This document shows positions 2,392-11,085 of a DNA stretch of 55,149 nt, piece by piece. A program made the translations under genes and the position numbers. The first letter of the stretch is position 1. Every line of letters begins with the position of its first letter. The notes under the pieces are model-generated. The model ran no database searches. It had not been told where the DNA came from and was given only the letters and a program-made list of their open reading frames with translations. The stretch comes from Melioribacteraceae bacterium (GTDB taxonomy: Bacteria; Bacteroidota; Ignavibacteria; Ignavibacteriales; Melioribacteraceae). The stretch is from assembly GCA_016342755.1 (NCBI GenBank), contig JAEINS010000028.1:1-55149 (forward strand), read 5' to 3'.

Positions 2392-2415
2392 ATTCCGGTT
2401 TTATTTAACCGGAAT
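2392..2415 (-). terminator. hairpin terminator of the fur-MBL operon
   Basis: Nine-base arms ATTCCGGTT and AACCGGAAT surround a TTATTT loop. The hairpin touches the stop codon of the hydrolase gene, and on the minus strand it is followed by an AT-rich stretch. Confidence 0.65.
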
Positions 2416-3137
2416 TATTTTTGCGGCATGTGGACTAAAAAATATTCTTTCGCAGTTTTACCAATTTCAATTGCTTCATCAATTGATAAATGCATTTCCA
2501 GATTATCTTTCTCTTCTGAACCGGCTTCTATAATAGCAAGATCAGAATTTTTTACCATTTCAACTAAATTATCACAATAAGCAGTATCACCACCGTAGCA
2601 GATAGATTTATTTCCATTAAAAAACTTAAACCCTAATGCCGGTACGCTTACCGATATTTCATTCCCGGAAGATTGTTCTTTATGATTAACTTTAAAGGAA
2701 ATTACTTTTATATCATCTAATTCAATTTCCTTTTCATTATCAATAGGAATTAAATTTATATTGAACTTAATTTCATGCGAATAAACTTTTTTGAAAGCGT
2801 TCTGAATAGTAATAACTTCTTCACAATTTGCCGGGAAATAAATGTTTAAAGGTTTAGTTCTTTTCATAACAGACAGATATGTTAATAGAGACCAGATTCC
2901 GCCAACATGATCATGATGCCCGTGCGAGATAAAAATATCAGAAATTTCTAATATTTTTGCCTGTCCAAGATCCTGATTCAAATCGCGCAAAATCCCGTCG
3001 CCAGGATCAACTACAATTATGGATTCTTTTGAAGTTATAACAATTCCCGTAGAAATATTAGGAATGGAACAGAATATTTTGATGAAGAGATTATCTTTTT
3101 CCCAGACTAAGGGATATTTTTGATTTATATGGTTCAT
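2415..3137 (-). CDS. MBL-fold metallohydrolase (RNase Z-like)
   Basis: This 240-residue protein has the metallo-beta-lactamase fold signature HxHxDH (HGHHDH at residues 72-77). Further metal-binding elements are NHKE near residue 150, GGDTAYCD near 190 and a final His in LVHMPQK at the C terminus. This layout is that of the RNase Z/arylsulfatase-type branch rather than true beta-lactamases, so a binuclear zinc phosphodiesterase or related hydrolase is likely. The tRNase exosite arm is not evident, so tRNA processing is not claimed. No signal peptide is seen, which suggests a cytoplasmic enzyme. The gene follows fur by 26 bases on the same strand and is probably co-transcribed with it. The substrate is unknown. 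Confidence 0.8.
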   Translation of the reverse strand: MNHINQKYPLVWEKDNLFIKIFCSIPNISTGIVITSKESIIVVDPGDGILRDLNQDLGQAKILEISDIFISHGHHDHVGGIWSLLTYLSVMKRTKPLNIYFPANCEEVITIQNAFKKVYSHEIKFNINLIPIDNEKEIELDDIKVISFKVNHKEQSSGNEISVSVPALGFKFFNGNKSICYGGDTAYCDNLVEMVKNSDLAIIEAGSEEKDNLEMHLSIDEAIEIGKTAKEYFLVHMPQK

Positions 3138-3163: not shown

Positions 3164-3628
3164 TTAGTCGAGGTTTTCATTTTGTTTTGTGCAGTTTGAT
3201 TTGTCTTTACACTTTCCAAAAATATTAAATGAATAATTGTTGAATTCAAAATTCGATTCAGTGCAGATTTTATCAATTATCGGATAAATGTCCGTATCAG
3301 TAAATTCAAATATTTTTCCGCAGTCGGTACACACCAAATGGTCATGTCTTTTTCGTTCGAAACATGATTCGTATTTAGCAATGTTATCGCCAAAATTCCT
3401 TTTTACAAGAAGTTTACATTGAACCAATAATTCAAGTGTATTATAAACTGTTGCTCTGGAAACATTTATCTTATTCATTTTAATTTGCAGATAAAGTTCA
3501 TCGGCACCAAAATGTTCTTCCATTTCTAAGGCTACATCAAGTACCTGAAATCTTTCCGGTGTAATTCTATTTTTACCGTTTTTTAAAAACTTTGTAAAAA
3601 TATCATGTGCTTTTTTATTATCTTTCAC
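3164..3628 (-). CDS. Fur-family metal- or peroxide-responsive repressor
   Basis: The 154-residue protein has the Fur architecture. A winged helix at about 20-80 includes the recognition segment NVSRATVYNTLELL, and a dimerisation and metal domain follows. HDHLVCTDC at 95-103 carries the His-x-His regulatory ligands and the first Cys-x2-Cys pair, and Cys140 and Cys146 form the second pair of a structural zinc site. Which subfamily it is (Fur, PerR or Zur) cannot be decided from the sequence alone. It precedes the MBL hydrolase gene and is divergent from the pterin operon. A near-perfect inverted repeat in the shared promoter region could be its own operator. Confidence 0.92.
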   Translation of the reverse strand: MKDNKKAHDIFTKFLKNGKNRITPERFQVLDVALEMEEHFGADELYLQIKMNKINVSRATVYNTLELLVQCKLLVKRNFGDNIAKYESCFERKRHDHLVCTDCGKIFEFTDTDIYPIIDKICTESNFEFNNYSFNIFGKCKDKSNCTKQNENLD

Positions 3629-3675
3629 GAGTCACTTTTATTTTATTTAGATTACGTCTTATTAAAATTAACGAT

Positions 3676-3693: not shown

Positions 3694-3790
3694 GTATGAA
3701 ATTTTTAACTCATATTTGTGTGATGAATAATAATTTAAGTTGAACTATTTTTTATTATTTTTGTTTTTATTTGAAAGCCAGGATATTAAA

Positions 3791-4198
3791 ATGATATATG
3801 TAACAAGAAGAGAAACTTTCTGTTCCTCACACCGACTTTGTAATACAAATTTAAGTGAAGAAGAAAATGATCAGCTATTTGGAAAATGCAATAATCTGAA
3901 TGGGCATGGACATAATTATGTATTGGAAGTTACTGTTGCCGGTAAACCTGATCCTAAAACCGGTTACGTTGTTGATCTGAAATTATTGAAAAATATTATT
4001 ATTGAAAATGTTATAGATAAAGTTGATCACAGAAATCTTAATCTGGATGTGGATTTTTTGAAAAATGTAATACCAACTACAGAAAATTTAGCGGTCGGAA
4101 TTTGGGGTCAGTTAGCAGATAAAATACCAAGCGGTAAACTTACATCTGTAAAATTATATGAAACAGAAAATAATTATATAGAATACAAAGGAGAATAA
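3791..4198 (+). CDS. 6-pyruvoyl-tetrahydropterin synthase, animal-like
   Basis: This 135-residue enzyme should convert 7,8-dihydroneopterin triphosphate to 6-pyruvoyl-tetrahydropterin. Zinc ligands are His14, His39 and His41, the catalytic Cys is Cys33, and Asp79-His80 and Glu124 complete the active site. Five residues separate Cys33 from the HGH motif, as in animal PTPS; bacterial QueD enzymes have three. The segments LFGKCNN, NGHGHNY and the terminal YKGE also match the animal enzyme closely. The ATG at 3791 is chosen because AGGA precedes it and the longer frame starts with an unlikely Phe/Leu-rich stretch. It is the first gene of a three-gene operon, two bases before folE. QueD activity in queuosine synthesis remains an alternative. 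Confidence 0.85.
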
Positions 4199-4200
4199 AA

Positions 4201-4761
4201 GTGGATTTATCGAAGATTGAAAAGAACGTGTATAGTATTCTCGATGAAATTGGTGAAGATCCAAATAGAGAAGGTTTAATAAAAACTCCTTTAAGAGTTG
4301 CAAAAGCTTACGAATTTTTAACAAGCGGATATAATAAAGATATAAATGAAGTTCTTAACGGTGCCGTTTTTGAAGAAGAATATGATGAAATGGTAATTGT
4401 GAAAGATATCGATTTTTACAGTATGTGCGAACATCATATGCTGCCATTTTTTGGAAAGGTTCATGTGGCTTATATTCCAAATGGTAAAATTGTGGGCTTA
4501 AGTAAAATTCCAAGAATTGTTGATGTTTTTTCTAGAAGACTTCAGGTTCAGGAAAGAATGACTCAGCAAATTGCAGATACAATAAATGAATATTTATCGC
4601 CTAAAGGTGTAGGTGTAATTTGCAACGGTTATCACATGTGTATGATGATGCGTGGAGTTCAGAAACAAAATTCTGCTACAACAACAAGTGCAATGCGTGG
4701 AATCTTCAAGAAGGATGAACGTACAAGAATTGAATTCTTAAAACTAACTGGTGTTCAGTAA
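4201..4761 (+). CDS. folE: GTP cyclohydrolase I
   Basis: The enzyme makes 7,8-dihydroneopterin triphosphate from GTP, the first step of folate and biopterin synthesis. It is 186 residues long, typical of the bacterial homodecameric type IA enzyme. Zinc ligands are Cys76 and His79 (in CEHHMLPF) and Cys147 (in HMCM). The motif VGLSKIPR and the following QVQER segment are family hallmarks. The GTG start at 4201 is supported by AAAGGAGA six bases upstream. It lies between PTPS and a short-chain reductase, overlapping the latter by one base, so its product is probably channelled to a reduced pterin as well as to folate. Confidence 0.96.
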
Positions 4762-5468
4762 TGAAAGAAAATATTGCGTGGATAACAGGAGCAAGTTCCG
4801 GTATTGGAAAAGAATTAGCTTATAAATTTTCTAATAATGCTGATAATCTTGTTCTTACTGCAAGATCGGAAGATAAGCTGATAAAAATTAAAGACGAATT
4901 AAAAAGTAATAAGGGTAAATGCGAAATTTCTTCATTTTCAATTTCTTCAAATGAAGATGTCTTAAGTTTTAATAAAGATATTTCAAGTAAATTTAATATT
5001 GATTGCCTGATCAACAATGCCGGAATAACAGCATTTAAATTAGTTAATGATCATACCATAGATGAAATTCAGCAGATTCTCGAAGTTAATCTGCTTGGTT
5101 CAATCTATGCCACTAAAGCAGTATTACCCGGAATGATTGAAAGAAAATCCGGGACAATCATAAATATTATCTCGGTTGCCGCAGAAAAAGTTTTTACTCA
5201 CAGCAGTGTTTATGCGGCGTCAAAAGCCGGATTATTAGCCTTTACAAAATCTCTTAGAGAAGAAGTTCGCGAACATAATATACGTGTTATAAATATTATT
5301 CCCGGAGCAACAAAAACTCCGATCTGGCCCGAAAGTTCTGCCGAAAAATTTGGCGAAAGAATGATGAAATCTTCTGATTTAGCTGATATGATTTATAATC
5401 TGTATGAGAACAAATCGACAGTTGTACCGGAAGAAGTTGTATTAAGACCAATTTTAGGAGATTTATAA
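4761..5468 (+). CDS. short-chain dehydrogenase, possible sepiapterin reductase
   Basis: A 235-residue classical SDR. GASSGIG (10-16) binds NAD(P), NNAG is at 85-88, and the catalytic residues are Ser138, Tyr151 and Lys155 (YAASK). Its ATG overlaps the folE stop (TAATG), so the two are translationally coupled. The general SDR family does not fix a substrate. Position third after PTPS and GTP cyclohydrolase I makes reduction of 6-pyruvoyl-tetrahydropterin (sepiapterin reductase activity) the best hypothesis, which would complete tetrahydrobiopterin synthesis. An unrelated NADP-dependent oxidoreductase is the alternative. Confidence 0.85.
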   Translation: MKENIAWITGASSGIGKELAYKFSNNADNLVLTARSEDKLIKIKDELKSNKGKCEISSFSISSNEDVLSFNKDISSKFNIDCLINNAGITAFKLVNDHTIDEIQQILEVNLLGSIYATKAVLPGMIERKSGTIINIISVAAEKVFTHSSVYAASKAGLLAFTKSLREEVREHNIRVINIIPGATKTPIWPESSAEKFGERMMKSSDLADMIYNLYENKSTVVPEEVVLRPILGDL

Positions 5469-7190: not shown

Positions 7191-7802
7191 ATGAGTAATG
7201 AAGAAAATAAGAAAGGAATTTCGCGTAGAAAATTTTTAAAAGGAACAGGTGCCGGAGTAATCGGGAGTTCCATACTTATTTCTAATCTGGCAAAAGCCGA
7301 TGAGAAAAATGAGCAATTGGAAAAAGATGTAGATTCTAAAAGTATTCATTCTATTTCGTTAACTGTTAATGGTAAAAAAGTTAACGCAAAAGTAAAAGCA
7401 AATACTACCCTGGTGCAGTTTATAAGAGATGAACTAAAACTTACCGGAACAAAAGCTGCTTGTAACGAGGGTCAATGTGGCAGTTGTACTGTAATAGTTA
7501 ATAACCAGGCTGTTTATTCTTGTCACATGCTTGCCGTTGATGCAAATAATAAAGAGATAATTACTATTGAAGGTTTAATGAACGGTGAGGAAATAAATCC
7601 GCTTCAGGAAGCATTTAAAGAGAAAGACGGCTTACAGTGCGGGTTCTGTTCTCCCGGGCAAATAATGGCTGCTCATGCATTATTGCTTAGAAATAAAAAA
7701 CCTACAAAAGCAGAAATTAAAGAAGCAATGGCTGGAAATCTTTGCCGGTGCGGTGCGTATCCACACATAATAGAATCAGTTTTTGAAGCAGCTAAAAATT
7801 AA
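7191..7802 (+). CDS. molybdenum hydroxylase iron-sulfur subunit, Tat-exported
   Basis: A 203-residue [2Fe-2S] subunit of the xanthine dehydrogenase/aldehyde oxidase family. A twin-arginine signal (SRRKFLK at 11-17, then a hydrophobic stretch to about 33) directs export of the folded complex. The plant-ferredoxin-type cluster is bound by Cys91, Cys96, Cys99 and Cys111. The second, all-helical cluster domain has CGFC (150-153) and CRC (185-187). This arrangement matches PaoA of the periplasmic aldehyde oxidoreductase. It is the first gene of a three-gene operon; the next subunit starts 17 bases downstream. Confidence 0.93.
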   Translation: MSNEENKKGISRRKFLKGTGAGVIGSSILISNLAKADEKNEQLEKDVDSKSIHSISLTVNGKKVNAKVKANTTLVQFIRDELKLTGTKAACNEGQCGSCTVIVNNQAVYSCHMLAVDANNKEIITIEGLMNGEEINPLQEAFKEKDGLQCGFCSPGQIMAAHALLLRNKKPTKAEIKEAMAGNLCRCGAYPHIIESVFEAAKN

Positions 7803-7819
7803 AATTGTCTGAGGTATAA

Positions 7820-10111
7820 ATGTCAACAAAATTTATTAAATCCAAGTTCTGGGTCGAAGACATAAAAGAAGAAATGATGGCTGAAGTTCCTATTTCAGTT
7901 GTAGAACCCTGGCAAAAAGATAAAGAACTAAAATATGTTGGTAAACCAGAATCGCGAAAAGATGCGTATGATAAGGTTAGCGGAACCGCGGAATATACAT
8001 TTGATAAAAGTTTTTCACAAATTGCGGTTGCCAAAACTTTAAGATCGCCCTATCCAAATGCTGTTATTAAAAAGATTGATGTTTCGGAAGCGATAAAGAA
8101 TAAAAATGTTCTCGGAATTTTAACACCCGATAATTGTAAAGACAATGACTGGTATAGCGGAACAAGTAAACTGCTTGATAAAAAAGTAAGATATAATGGT
8201 GATGAAATTGCATGTATAGTTGCGGAGACTGAACAAGATGCAGAAGAAGCTTTAAGGTTAATTAAAATAGAGTATGAAATTCTTCCGCATGTAACGGATT
8301 TAGAAAAAGCAAAATTGGATACTGCAGCTAAGATAAATGATCACGAATTAAAACCAAGAGAGTATAACAGAGGAAATTTAGAGGAAGGTTTAAAAGAAGC
8401 TGATATAATTGTAGAAGATAAATTTTCAACTTCCGTGGCCGTTCATAATCCGCTTGAACCCCATTGCAGCGTTGTTAAATGGGATGGTGAAAAATTATTG
8501 GTATTCGATTCAACTCAGGGTATTTGGGCTGTACGCGATACAGTAGCAAGTCAGCTTGGCATTCCCGCCAGTAATGTTCGTGTTATAAAAAAATATATGG
8601 GCGGCGGATTTGGTGGTAAACTAGAATGCGGTAAATATACTGTAATGGCCGCATTACTTTCTAAGAAGATTGGAAGACCGGTTAAAATTGTACTGGATCG
8701 TAAGGAAATGAATCAGGCTGTGGGAAACCGTCCTTCGTCTGTGCAGGAATTAAAAATAGGTGCTAAAAAGGATGGATCTATAACTGCAATAAGTCATAAC
8801 GCTTACGGTACAGCAGGCGCGTTTCCCGGAAGTGCGGGATGTTCATGGCCTGCCCGCAGTCTGTATAAATGCCCTAACATGAAATTAGTTGATACTACGT
8901 ATTATATAAATGCCGGAAAAGACAGACCGTTTAGAGCACCGGGACATGTGCAGGGAACATTCGCGTTTGAATCAATTATAGACGAAGCAGCGGAAAAATT
9001 AGGAATGGATCCGATTGAGTTTAGAGTTAAAAATTTTACAGCTGTTGATCCTGACTGGAACGGACCTTATACAAGTAAACTATTAAGAGAAGCTTATATA
9101 GCAGGTGCCGATAAAATCAGATGGAAAGAAAATAGAAAAAAAGCGGGATTTGGCGGAGGTATAGTTAAAACGGGCTATGGAATGGCATCACAGATTTGGT
9201 GGGGCGGCGGTGCCCCTCCATCGTACGCAATATTAAAATTGAACTGGGACGGAAGTGCCGAATTAGTAAGCGGAACACAAGATATTGGTACTGGTACTTA
9301 TACAATTCTTGCTCAGATTGTAGCCGAAGTATTAGAAATTCCTACCAGAAAAATTAATGTAGTATTAGGTGATACAGGTGTTTGTCCATTTGGAGCAATG
9401 AGCGGCGGAAGTATGACTGCACCTTCTGTTGGTCCGGCCGCAAGAGATGCCGCTGAAAAAATGTTGTCAAAATTAAAATCAGCCGCGGCGGCAATATTAG
9501 AATTATCTGAAGACAAGTTAGAATACTCAGAAGGTGTATTCAGTAGCAAAGATGATAGAAGTAAAACGGCCGATTTCTCAAAACTGTTTGGACATTTTAG
9601 AGAAGGAGTCCTGGTTACACAAGGTGCAAGAGAAGCTAATCCTGAAGGTTATGCAATTAATACTTTTGGAGCACAGTTTGCCAAGGTGGATGTAAATACA
9701 TTAACCGGAAAAGTTTGTGTTAAACATGTTGTTGCCGCCCATGATATTGGACGGGTATTAAATCGTAAAACTTTAAATAACCAGTTTCACGGCGGTATAA
9801 TGATGGGATTGGGATTTGCTCTTCTTGAGGAAAGAGTAATTGATAATTATACTGGGAAATTGCTTACTACAAATCTGCTTGATTATAAACTTCCTACAAT
9901 TATTGAAACTCCGGAAATAGATGTTATAATAGTGAGCGAAGAAGATAATAAAGTAAATAATATAGGTGCAAAGGGAATAGGAGAACCTGCAATGATTCCA
10001 ACTGCCGGGGCAATTGCTAACGCAGTTTACAACGCAATTGGTGTACGAATAAAAGATCTGCCTATAACTCCTGATAAAGTCTTAAATGCATTAGCTTCAA
10101 AAAATAATTGA
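7820..10111 (+). CDS. molybdenum hydroxylase catalytic (Moco) subunit
   Basis: A 763-residue large subunit of the xanthine oxidase family. GGGFGGK at 261-267 and GTQDIGTGTYT near residue 490 are molybdopterin-cofactor binding motifs. Glu722 in GIGEP is the expected catalytic base. The protein has no signal of its own and would be exported with the Tat-bearing small subunit, as described for PaoABC. GAGG precedes the ATG. The gene order here is FeS-Moco-FAD, whereas in paoABC it is FeS-FAD-Moco. Substrates of such enzymes are aldehydes or N-heterocycles; aldehydes are favoured by the resemblance to Pao. Confidence 0.93.
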   Translation: MSTKFIKSKFWVEDIKEEMMAEVPISVVEPWQKDKELKYVGKPESRKDAYDKVSGTAEYTFDKSFSQIAVAKTLRSPYPNAVIKKIDVSEAIKNKNVLGILTPDNCKDNDWYSGTSKLLDKKVRYNGDEIACIVAETEQDAEEALRLIKIEYEILPHVTDLEKAKLDTAAKINDHELKPREYNRGNLEEGLKEADIIVEDKFSTSVAVHNPLEPHCSVVKWDGEKLLVFDSTQGIWAVRDTVASQLGIPASNVRVIKKYMGGGFGGKLECGKYTVMAALLSKKIGRPVKIVLDRKEMNQAVGNRPSSVQELKIGAKKDGSITAISHNAYGTAGAFPGSAGCSWPARSLYKCPNMKLVDTTYYINAGKDRPFRAPGHVQGTFAFESIIDEAAEKLGMDPIEFRVKNFTAVDPDWNGPYTSKLLREAYIAGADKIRWKENRKKAGFGGGIVKTGYGMASQIWWGGGAPPSYAILKLNWDGSAELVSGTQDIGTGTYTILAQIVAEVLEIPTRKINVVLGDTGVCPFGAMSGGSMTAPSVGPAARDAAEKMLSKLKSAAAAILELSEDKLEYSEGVFSSKDDRSKTADFSKLFGHFREGVLVTQGAREANPEGYAINTFGAQFAKVDVNTLTGKVCVKHVVAAHDIGRVLNRKTLNNQFHGGIMMGLGFALLEERVIDNYTGKLLTTNLLDYKLPTIIETPEIDVIIVSEEDNKVNNIGAKGIGEPAMIPTAGAIANAVYNAIGVRIKDLPITPDKVLNALASKNN

Positions 10112-10122
10112 CCGGGATAACA

Positions 10123-11085
10123 ATGAAAAACTTTAAATATATTCAGCCTAAATCTTTAAGTGAAGTTAAAAAATATTTTTCTGATAATCATTCAGTTCTT
10201 TATGCTGGAGGTACGGATGTTTTAGGTTTAGTAAAAAAAGAAGTATATAATTATGAAAACATGATCGATCTTAAATCGGTTCCCGATCTGGATAAAGTAG
10301 AAGAGGTTAAAGGAAAAGGATTAAAGATAGGTGCATTGGTTAAGATTTCTGAGATTGCAGAAAGTGAAATTATTAAAAATAAATATACTGCTTTATCCGA
10401 TGCAGCTCAAAAAGTAGCTTCTCCGCAGATAAGAAATATGGCAACACTTGGTGGTAATATTTGTCAGAGACCAAGATGCTGGTATTATCGTGATGATTAT
10501 GCGTGTCTGCGTAAAGATGGCGATTATTGCTACGCTGAGGAAGGGGAGAATAAGTATCACGCCGTTATAGGCGGTTCTCCATGTTTTATTGTTCATCCGT
10601 CCGATACAGCAGTTGCTCTTATGGCATTGGATGCTGTTTTTAATATCTTCGATGGCAACGCCGAAAGGGAAGTTCCAATAAGTGAATTTTTTGTTCAGCC
10701 TGATGAAGATGTTTACTTAGAGAATATTTTAAAACCTTATGAGGTTCTTACAAGCGTCTTTATTCCGGAACAGAAAAACAAGGTAAGCAGATTTATAAAA
10801 TTTGCTGAAAGAGATGTCTGGGATTTTGCAATGGCAAGTGTGGCTGTAAAAGTTGAGAAAAACGGAAATAAAATAACCGGCGGTAAAATTATTTTAGGCG
10901 GTGTAGCTCCAATTCCATGGTACGATGAAAAGATTAACAAAGGAATTAGCGGATTAACACTGGATGAAAAAAGTATCGATGAATTTTCTAAGCTTGCATT
11001 ACAAGACGCAGAGCCATTAAGTAAAAACGGATATAAAATAACTCTTGCCAGAAACCTGATAAAAATGATTTTATCAGAAATTTAA
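10123..11085 (+). CDS. molybdenum hydroxylase FAD subunit with extra iron-sulfur cluster
   Basis: A 320-residue CoxM/XdhB-type subunit. FAD-binding motifs are AGGTD (28-32) and TLGGNICQ (108-115). Directly after the second motif lies a Cys-rich insert (Cys114, 119, 128, 136 and 154) as in PaoB, where it carries an additional [4Fe-4S] cluster. The ATG at 10123 is preferred over a TTG at 10108, since it lies 11 bases after the previous stop with a GGGA element between. A perfect nine-base hairpin (11056-11077) is embedded in the last codons and may help termination. No XdhC-type maturation gene is in the window. Confidence 0.92.
   Translation: MKNFKYIQPKSLSEVKKYFSDNHSVLYAGGTDVLGLVKKEVYNYENMIDLKSVPDLDKVEEVKGKGLKIGALVKISEIAESEIIKNKYTALSDAAQKVASPQIRNMATLGGNICQRPRCWYYRDDYACLRKDGDYCYAEEGENKYHAVIGGSPCFIVHPSDTAVALMALDAVFNIFDGNAEREVPISEFFVQPDEDVYLENILKPYEVLTSVFIPEQKNKVSRFIKFAERDVWDFAMASVAVKVEKNGNKITGGKIILGGVAPIPWYDEKINKGISGLTLDEKSIDEFSKLALQDAEPLSKNGYKITLARNLIKMILSEI

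Follow-up and report, generated by a model that had tools for sequence, protein, structure and literature searches.

A probable de novo tetrahydrobiopterin operon in the Ignavibacteriales and its association with peroxide-defence genes

In a 55,149-nucleotide stretch of DNA from a Melioribacteraceae bacterium (contig JAEINS010000028.1; hereafter the window), three neighbouring genes very likely constitute an operon for the de novo synthesis of tetrahydrobiopterin (Table 1). They encode a 6-pyruvoyl-tetrahydropterin synthase (PTPS) of the animal type, a GTP cyclohydrolase I (FolE) and a short-chain dehydrogenase/reductase (SDR) whose closest characterized relative is the sepiapterin reductase (SR) of Chlorobium tepidum. 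A bacterial tetrahydrobiopterin pathway of this kind is already known from other bacteria, and Kong and co-workers reportedly described the FolE/PTPS-II/sepiapterin reductase route in 2006. A later report likewise names FolE, PTPS-II and SR as the bacterial pathway and puts the number of predicted members at about 50 (PMC5041015); these are the three enzymes and the paralogue subtype found here, the tetrahydrobiopterin branch of COG0720.

Table 1. Positions of the operon genes and of the adjacent putative regulatory features in the window
Feature	Position	Strand	Remarks
PTPS, 6-pyruvoyl-tetrahydropterin synthase, PTPS-II (animal) type	3791..4198	+	PF01242; C-X5-HGH; ATG start
FolE, GTP cyclohydrolase I	4201..4761	+	PF01227; TIGR00063; GTG start
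Sepiapterin reductase, Chlorobium tepidum type (short-chain dehydrogenase)	4761..5468	+	PF00106; 2bd0 match; ATG start
Fur-family regulator	3164..3628	-	PF01475, 98 bits; divergent, upstream in 19 of 41 loci including the window
TTTAGATTNNGTCT element, putative operator	3646..3659	+	between the Fur-family gene and the operon

Results

Organization and conservation of the operon

The preliminary description of this DNA had proposed three tightly packed genes with gaps of +2 and -1 bases, and the start and stop positions bear this out: two bases separate the PTPS gene from folE, and the reductase gene overlaps the end of folE by one base (TAATG). The longest open reading of the first gene begins at a TTG at position 3740; alignment with relatives favours the ATG at 3791, which is also the start that had been noted at the outset. 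All three products score above the curated Pfam cut-offs, with 127 bits for PTPS, 273 bits for FolE and 174 bits for the SDR.

The comparison drew on the loci of 40 relatives, selected among 57 that matched, in part according to the space on their contigs; with the window this makes 41 loci. Since the order PTPS-FolE-SR is the same in every one of them, the grouping is not due to chance. Where all three open reading frames are listed (39 loci), the gaps measure at most 14 bases between PTPS and FolE and at most 39 bases between FolE and the SDR, the large apparent overlaps in these loci being an artefact of the longest readings. Of the 58 genomes of the order, 57 contain a PTPS of the operon kind (E <= 8.2e-44), the one without it being 68% complete; FolE was likewise found in 57, and an SR beside FolE on the same contig in 54. 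An adjacent SR is missing from four genomes, namely the incomplete one (G018), G029, whose contig stops 334 bases past FolE, G007, in which the contig continues on the expected side of FolE with no SR match at E <= 1e-30, and G033. The reductase varies more outside the order: 45 of 80 named loci have a match (E <= 1e-8) on the downstream side of PTPS, although several of these matches are only 25-33% identical and some contigs are cut short.

Assignment of FolE and PTPS

FolE exceeds the cut-off of the equivalog model TIGR00063 (269.5 versus 181.6 bits) and matches the solved structures PDB 1wm9 and human 1fb1. As it is the only match to PF01227 in the genome of the window, where cyclohydrolases of this type were searched for, it probably feeds folate and queuosine synthesis as well.

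The PTPS shares 53% identity with human 3i2b over 133 columns and 51% with rat 1b66 over 131. Its best solved relatives are the human, rat and worm PTPS (E 1e-40, 7e-39 and 2e-30), and the other six solved chains, labelled QueD or of unstated role, match at just 6e-12 to 5e-9. All the motifs reported for it in the preliminary description are present, namely LFGKCNN, Cys33 (codon 3887-3889) with five residues before HGH, and the terminal YKGE. The C-X5-HGH pattern recurs in 84 of 86 PTPS-family rows, the remaining two being QueD-type rows with three residues, and seven residues, which we take to be zinc-binding or catalytic from the roles and numbering of the rat enzyme, are kept in the window and all 13 relatives aligned (14/14 rows). 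With C-X5-HGH, the zinc His and the Asp-His dyad, as we understand the roles of these residues, the protein has the sequence features of PTPS-II, and we predict that it very probably converts dihydroneopterin triphosphate to 6-pyruvoyl-tetrahydropterin. It stays below the cut-off of NCBIfam TIGR00039 (95.7 versus 125.5 bits), a model that spans PTPS and QueD jointly and cannot tell the subtypes apart.

A PTPS tree of 86 rows and 135 columns was built with a quick method. Of the phylogeny against animal, chlorobial and QueD sequences that had been proposed as a check, it covers the animal and QueD-type rows, with chlorobial PTPS left out. The window groups within a set from Ignavibacteriota (SH-aLRT 93; drawn open) that is separate from the one holding the animal rows; the deep forks lack resolution, and among these rows there is no sign of a recent transfer from animals. 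By PTPS, the nearest named organisms are Ignavibacteriales, Melioribacter and unclassified Bacteroidetes bins. In the phylum as a whole, a PTPS model built for this analysis matches in 370 of 392 genomes, a count that does not split PTPS-II from proteins possibly serving queuosine. The hydroxylase family PF00351 matches in 132 of the 392, many of these matches being pairs of partial hits within reading frames of about 585 amino acids.

Assignment of the reductase

Among 615 solved sequence matches, the best for the reductase is 2bd0, the sepiapterin reductase of C. tepidum (E 4e-34, 35% identity), followed by the next at 8e-29. An AlphaFold model made from 17 sequences (pLDDT 93.9) again retrieved 2bd0 at the top, both with Foldseek (E 8e-22, TM 0.94) and with VIA-align (Z 34.0, rmsd 1.5, 232 aligned). 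Because general SDRs have nearly the same fold, the next reaching Z 32.9, the substrate cannot be read from the fold by itself.

More telling are individual residues. According to a review, the C. tepidum enzyme cannot bind its substrate without Phe-99 and Trp-196, owing to a swivelled binding mode, and a title cited there ties the two residues to L-threo-tetrahydrobiopterin (PMC7520308). Their equivalents in the window are F92 (codon 5034-5036) and W189 (codon 5325-5327), and both are found in 40 of 40 operon reductases (the window and 39 relatives). A further set of the window and 16 named loci, drawn partly from the same genomes, has Trp in 17 of 17 and Phe in 16, with one Tyr. The SDR triad Ser-Tyr-Lys is present in the window; Tyr and Lys are kept in 40/40 operon reductases and Ser in 39/40. 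A second SDR gene, 31-39% identical to the window reductase, directly follows the sepiapterin reductase gene in 15 of 40 loci (L050 and 14 others). This tandem copy has Phe in 11 of 15 cases and Trp in none, and it lacks the C-terminal Gly-Asp of 2bd0 throughout (0/15), of which the operon reductases have the Gly in 40/40 and the Asp in 36/40.

By analogy, the reductase most likely holds its substrate between F92 and W189 as the C. tepidum enzyme does. Since these sepiapterin-stacking residues are kept, we predict that the product is most likely L-threo-tetrahydrobiopterin and not the L-erythro form of animals. The preliminary description had likened the operon to the three enzymes that make tetrahydrobiopterin in animals. 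The likeness holds for the enzyme set, with close counterparts of GCH1 and PTS, but it does not extend to SPR, as the reductase is of the chlorobial kind and the isomer expected from it is not that of animals.

The established scheme of tetrahydrobiopterin synthesis can be laid over the three genes as follows. FolE would convert GTP to 7,8-dihydroneopterin triphosphate; PTPS would remove the triphosphate and rearrange the side chain to give 6-pyruvoyl-tetrahydropterin; and the reductase, with NADPH, would reduce the side-chain ketones to tetrahydrobiopterin, most likely as the L-threo isomer. FolB and QueD would branch from the same intermediate as PTPS. It is from this general knowledge of the pathway that we infer both the reactions and the isomer.

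Genomic neighbourhood

In 40 of the 41 loci the gene immediately upstream of PTPS encodes a thiol peroxidase (BCP), the window being the sole exception. Other neighbours recurring among these loci are a second peroxiredoxin (26), dodecin (19) and a divergent Fur-family gene (19), whose names, like that of the thiol peroxidase, were checked by family search on one example each; feoB is near the operon in 10. In the genome of the window, the nearest homologue of the thiol peroxidase (56% identical) is encoded on contig C29 and not beside the operon. There it belongs to a peroxide cluster, apart from the pterin operon, with genes for an AhpC-type protein, a Fur-family protein of its own, a redoxin and a thiol peroxidase.

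The Fur-family gene next to the operon, for which no NCBIfam subtype was obtained at cut-off, possibly regulates it. Between the two lies the element TTTAGATTNNGTCT, nearer to the Fur-family gene than to the operon, which was picked by eye after seeing the data and only then counted: it occurs with at most one mismatch in 11 of the 19 loci that have an adjacent Fur-family gene and with at least three mismatches in the other 8. At the former level it is found once in the window, and we regard it as a probable operator. Consensus sites of PerR, Fur and Zur were also tried on 18 Fur-operon regions and fitted no better than shuffled sequences (mean mismatches for PerR 3.72 versus 3.72).

The Fur-family gene adjoins a gene for a protein of the metallo-beta-lactamase fold (2415-3137), whose cluster is found in 16 of 41 loci. 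On the other side, directly 3' of the operon, the window encodes a protein that carries a C-terminal sorting domain for type IX secretion (PF18962; 5525-6628), and further on three genes of a molybdenum hydroxylase of the xanthine dehydrogenase type (2Fe-2S, MoCo and FAD subunits; 7191-11085), the first of which has a twin-arginine-like start as judged by eye.

Potential users of the pterin

A hydroxylase of family PF00351 is present in 11 of the 58 genomes of the order, all from one family (f3, 11 of 19 genomes), and no match was found in the 39 genomes of the other two (f1 and f2), to which the window's genome belongs. In all 11 genomes the hydroxylase gene lies 1.3-2.2 kb upstream of PTPS on the same strand, which links the operon to a user of tetrahydrobiopterin where one exists; in these relatives the pterin presumably serves as the cofactor of the hydroxylase. 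As neither PF00351 nor the NO synthase family PF02898 has a match in the window's genome, the two best-known kinds of tetrahydrobiopterin user, and with them a further part of the animal system, are missing there.

A pterin-4a-carbinolamine dehydratase is nevertheless present. This protein was matched in 41 genomes; its neighbourhoods were fetched for 20 of these, genomes without a PF00351 hydroxylase, and could be placed in 19. With names assigned by eye, its gene follows immediately after a clpC-like one in 16 of the 19, often near PduS-like and microcompartment genes, and in the window's genome between a beta-galactosidase-like and a transporter gene; no pterin user is indicated by these 19 neighbourhoods.

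Discussion

One may ask whether the operon could serve queuosine or folate instead of tetrahydrobiopterin. In the window's genome both of these routes have enzymes of their own, as there is a FolB (119 bits) as well as a separate QueD beside QueE. The latter is a second PTPS-family gene (G000:C37:87328) with a C-X3-HGH motif that overlaps the QueE gene; QueD and QueE score below the NCBIfam cut-offs (85.4 versus 89.25, and at best 293.4 versus 300). The operon PTPS is of the same fold family and agrees with this QueD in all seven residues examined, but has five residues before HGH in place of the three of QueD (PTPS-I), and the que linkage sits at the other locus. The motif, on which the preliminary description had relied, is present as claimed but would not have settled the matter by itself: because the seven residues are shared, they do not decide the subtype, and it is the genomic context that does. 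The idea of a second QueD, and hence of an operon devoted to queuosine, strikes us as very improbable. It could draw on these shared residues, on FolE being the first step to queuosine too, and on the abundance of PTPS matches in the phylum, where single copies may serve queuosine; however, a dedicated QueD overlaps QueE, inspection by eye of the sequences of recurring operon neighbours brought up no que gene, and a sepiapterin-type reductase is found in each of the 41 loci. The earlier preference for tetrahydrobiopterin over queuosine is supported by this separate QueD together with an SDR that is closest to a proven sepiapterin reductase. A folate-bypass enzyme (PTPS-III) that replaces FolB is hardly credible at all: FolE is shared with folate synthesis, but FolB is present, and the PTPS keeps the catalytic Cys where PTPS-III has Glu.

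The remaining alternatives concern the end of the pathway. One could argue that the SDR, though a neighbour of folE, is an unrelated reductase, so that the product stops at 6-pyruvoyl- or lactoyl-pterin, given its 35% identity to 2bd0, the nearly tied folds of other SDRs and the second SDR that follows in 15 of 40 loci. We consider this improbable, as the operon copy always has the equivalents of Phe-99 and Trp-196 whereas the tandem copy never has the Trp, and as the two copies differ in the same sense in the C-terminal Gly-Asp. Rather unlikely, too, is an end product of the tepidopterin kind. Glycosylated pterins have been described in Chlorobium and cyanobacteria (PMC5683033; PMC3546692). 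In its favour, the nearest match of the reductase comes from C. tepidum, a producer of such a glycoside (PMC5683033), and a 41% identical glycosyltransferase is encoded in G037, another genome of the order. By eye, a glycosyltransferase-like gene is also seen in the neighbourhood of the operon in L062, and SR is immediately followed by a sugar-transferase-like gene in L077 and L078, which belong to one genus. Against this, 56 of the 58 genomes of the order, including that of the window, have nothing that matches the C. tepidum pteridine glycosyltransferase (CtPGT) at E <= 1e-30, and no glycosyltransferase was recognized by eye among the neighbours that recur across genera. The glycosylated pterin that had been put forward as an alternative to reduced biopterin has thus found no support, even if a glycosyltransferase different from CtPGT could still make a pterin glycoside.

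If tetrahydrobiopterin is the product, as we think very likely, its purpose in genomes without a hydroxylase calls for comment. The steady company of peroxidase genes and the Fur-family regulator in 19 of 41 loci suggest redox or iron stress. We tentatively propose, while considering it rather doubtful, that in the hydroxylase-free families tetrahydrobiopterin serves a purpose different from amino acid hydroxylation, with peroxide or iron stress as the foremost candidate, and that the pterin would act there either as a redox-active antioxidant or as the cofactor of an unrecognised enzyme. Such a role, if true, would explain the linkage to thiol peroxidase, peroxiredoxin, dodecin, the Fur-family gene and feoB, and also why a carbinolamine dehydratase is kept without a PF00351 hydroxylase.

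In the open-access literature, with most subscription journals lying outside it, we found no paper that joins tetrahydrobiopterin with Ignavibacteri, and in the open-access literature likewise none on a bacterial tetrahydrobiopterin biosynthesis gene cluster with peroxiredoxin. Judged by titles and the beginnings of abstracts, papers on tetrahydrobiopterin, Bacteroidetes and phenylalanine hydroxylase deal with human or animal health or the microbiome, and the accessible part of a structural-colour paper that mentions pterins contains nothing on the operon genes (PMC12758843).

Overall, which bacteria make tetrahydrobiopterin, and for what purpose, is poorly settled. For the stereochemistry of the product, F92 and W189 offer a prediction at the level of single residues, namely the L-threo isomer. 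Nearly every genome of the order retains the pathway, no hydroxylase was found in the searched genomes of two of its three families, and peroxide-defence genes accompany the operon; the order thus provides a clear test case for a hydroxylase-independent role of the pterin.
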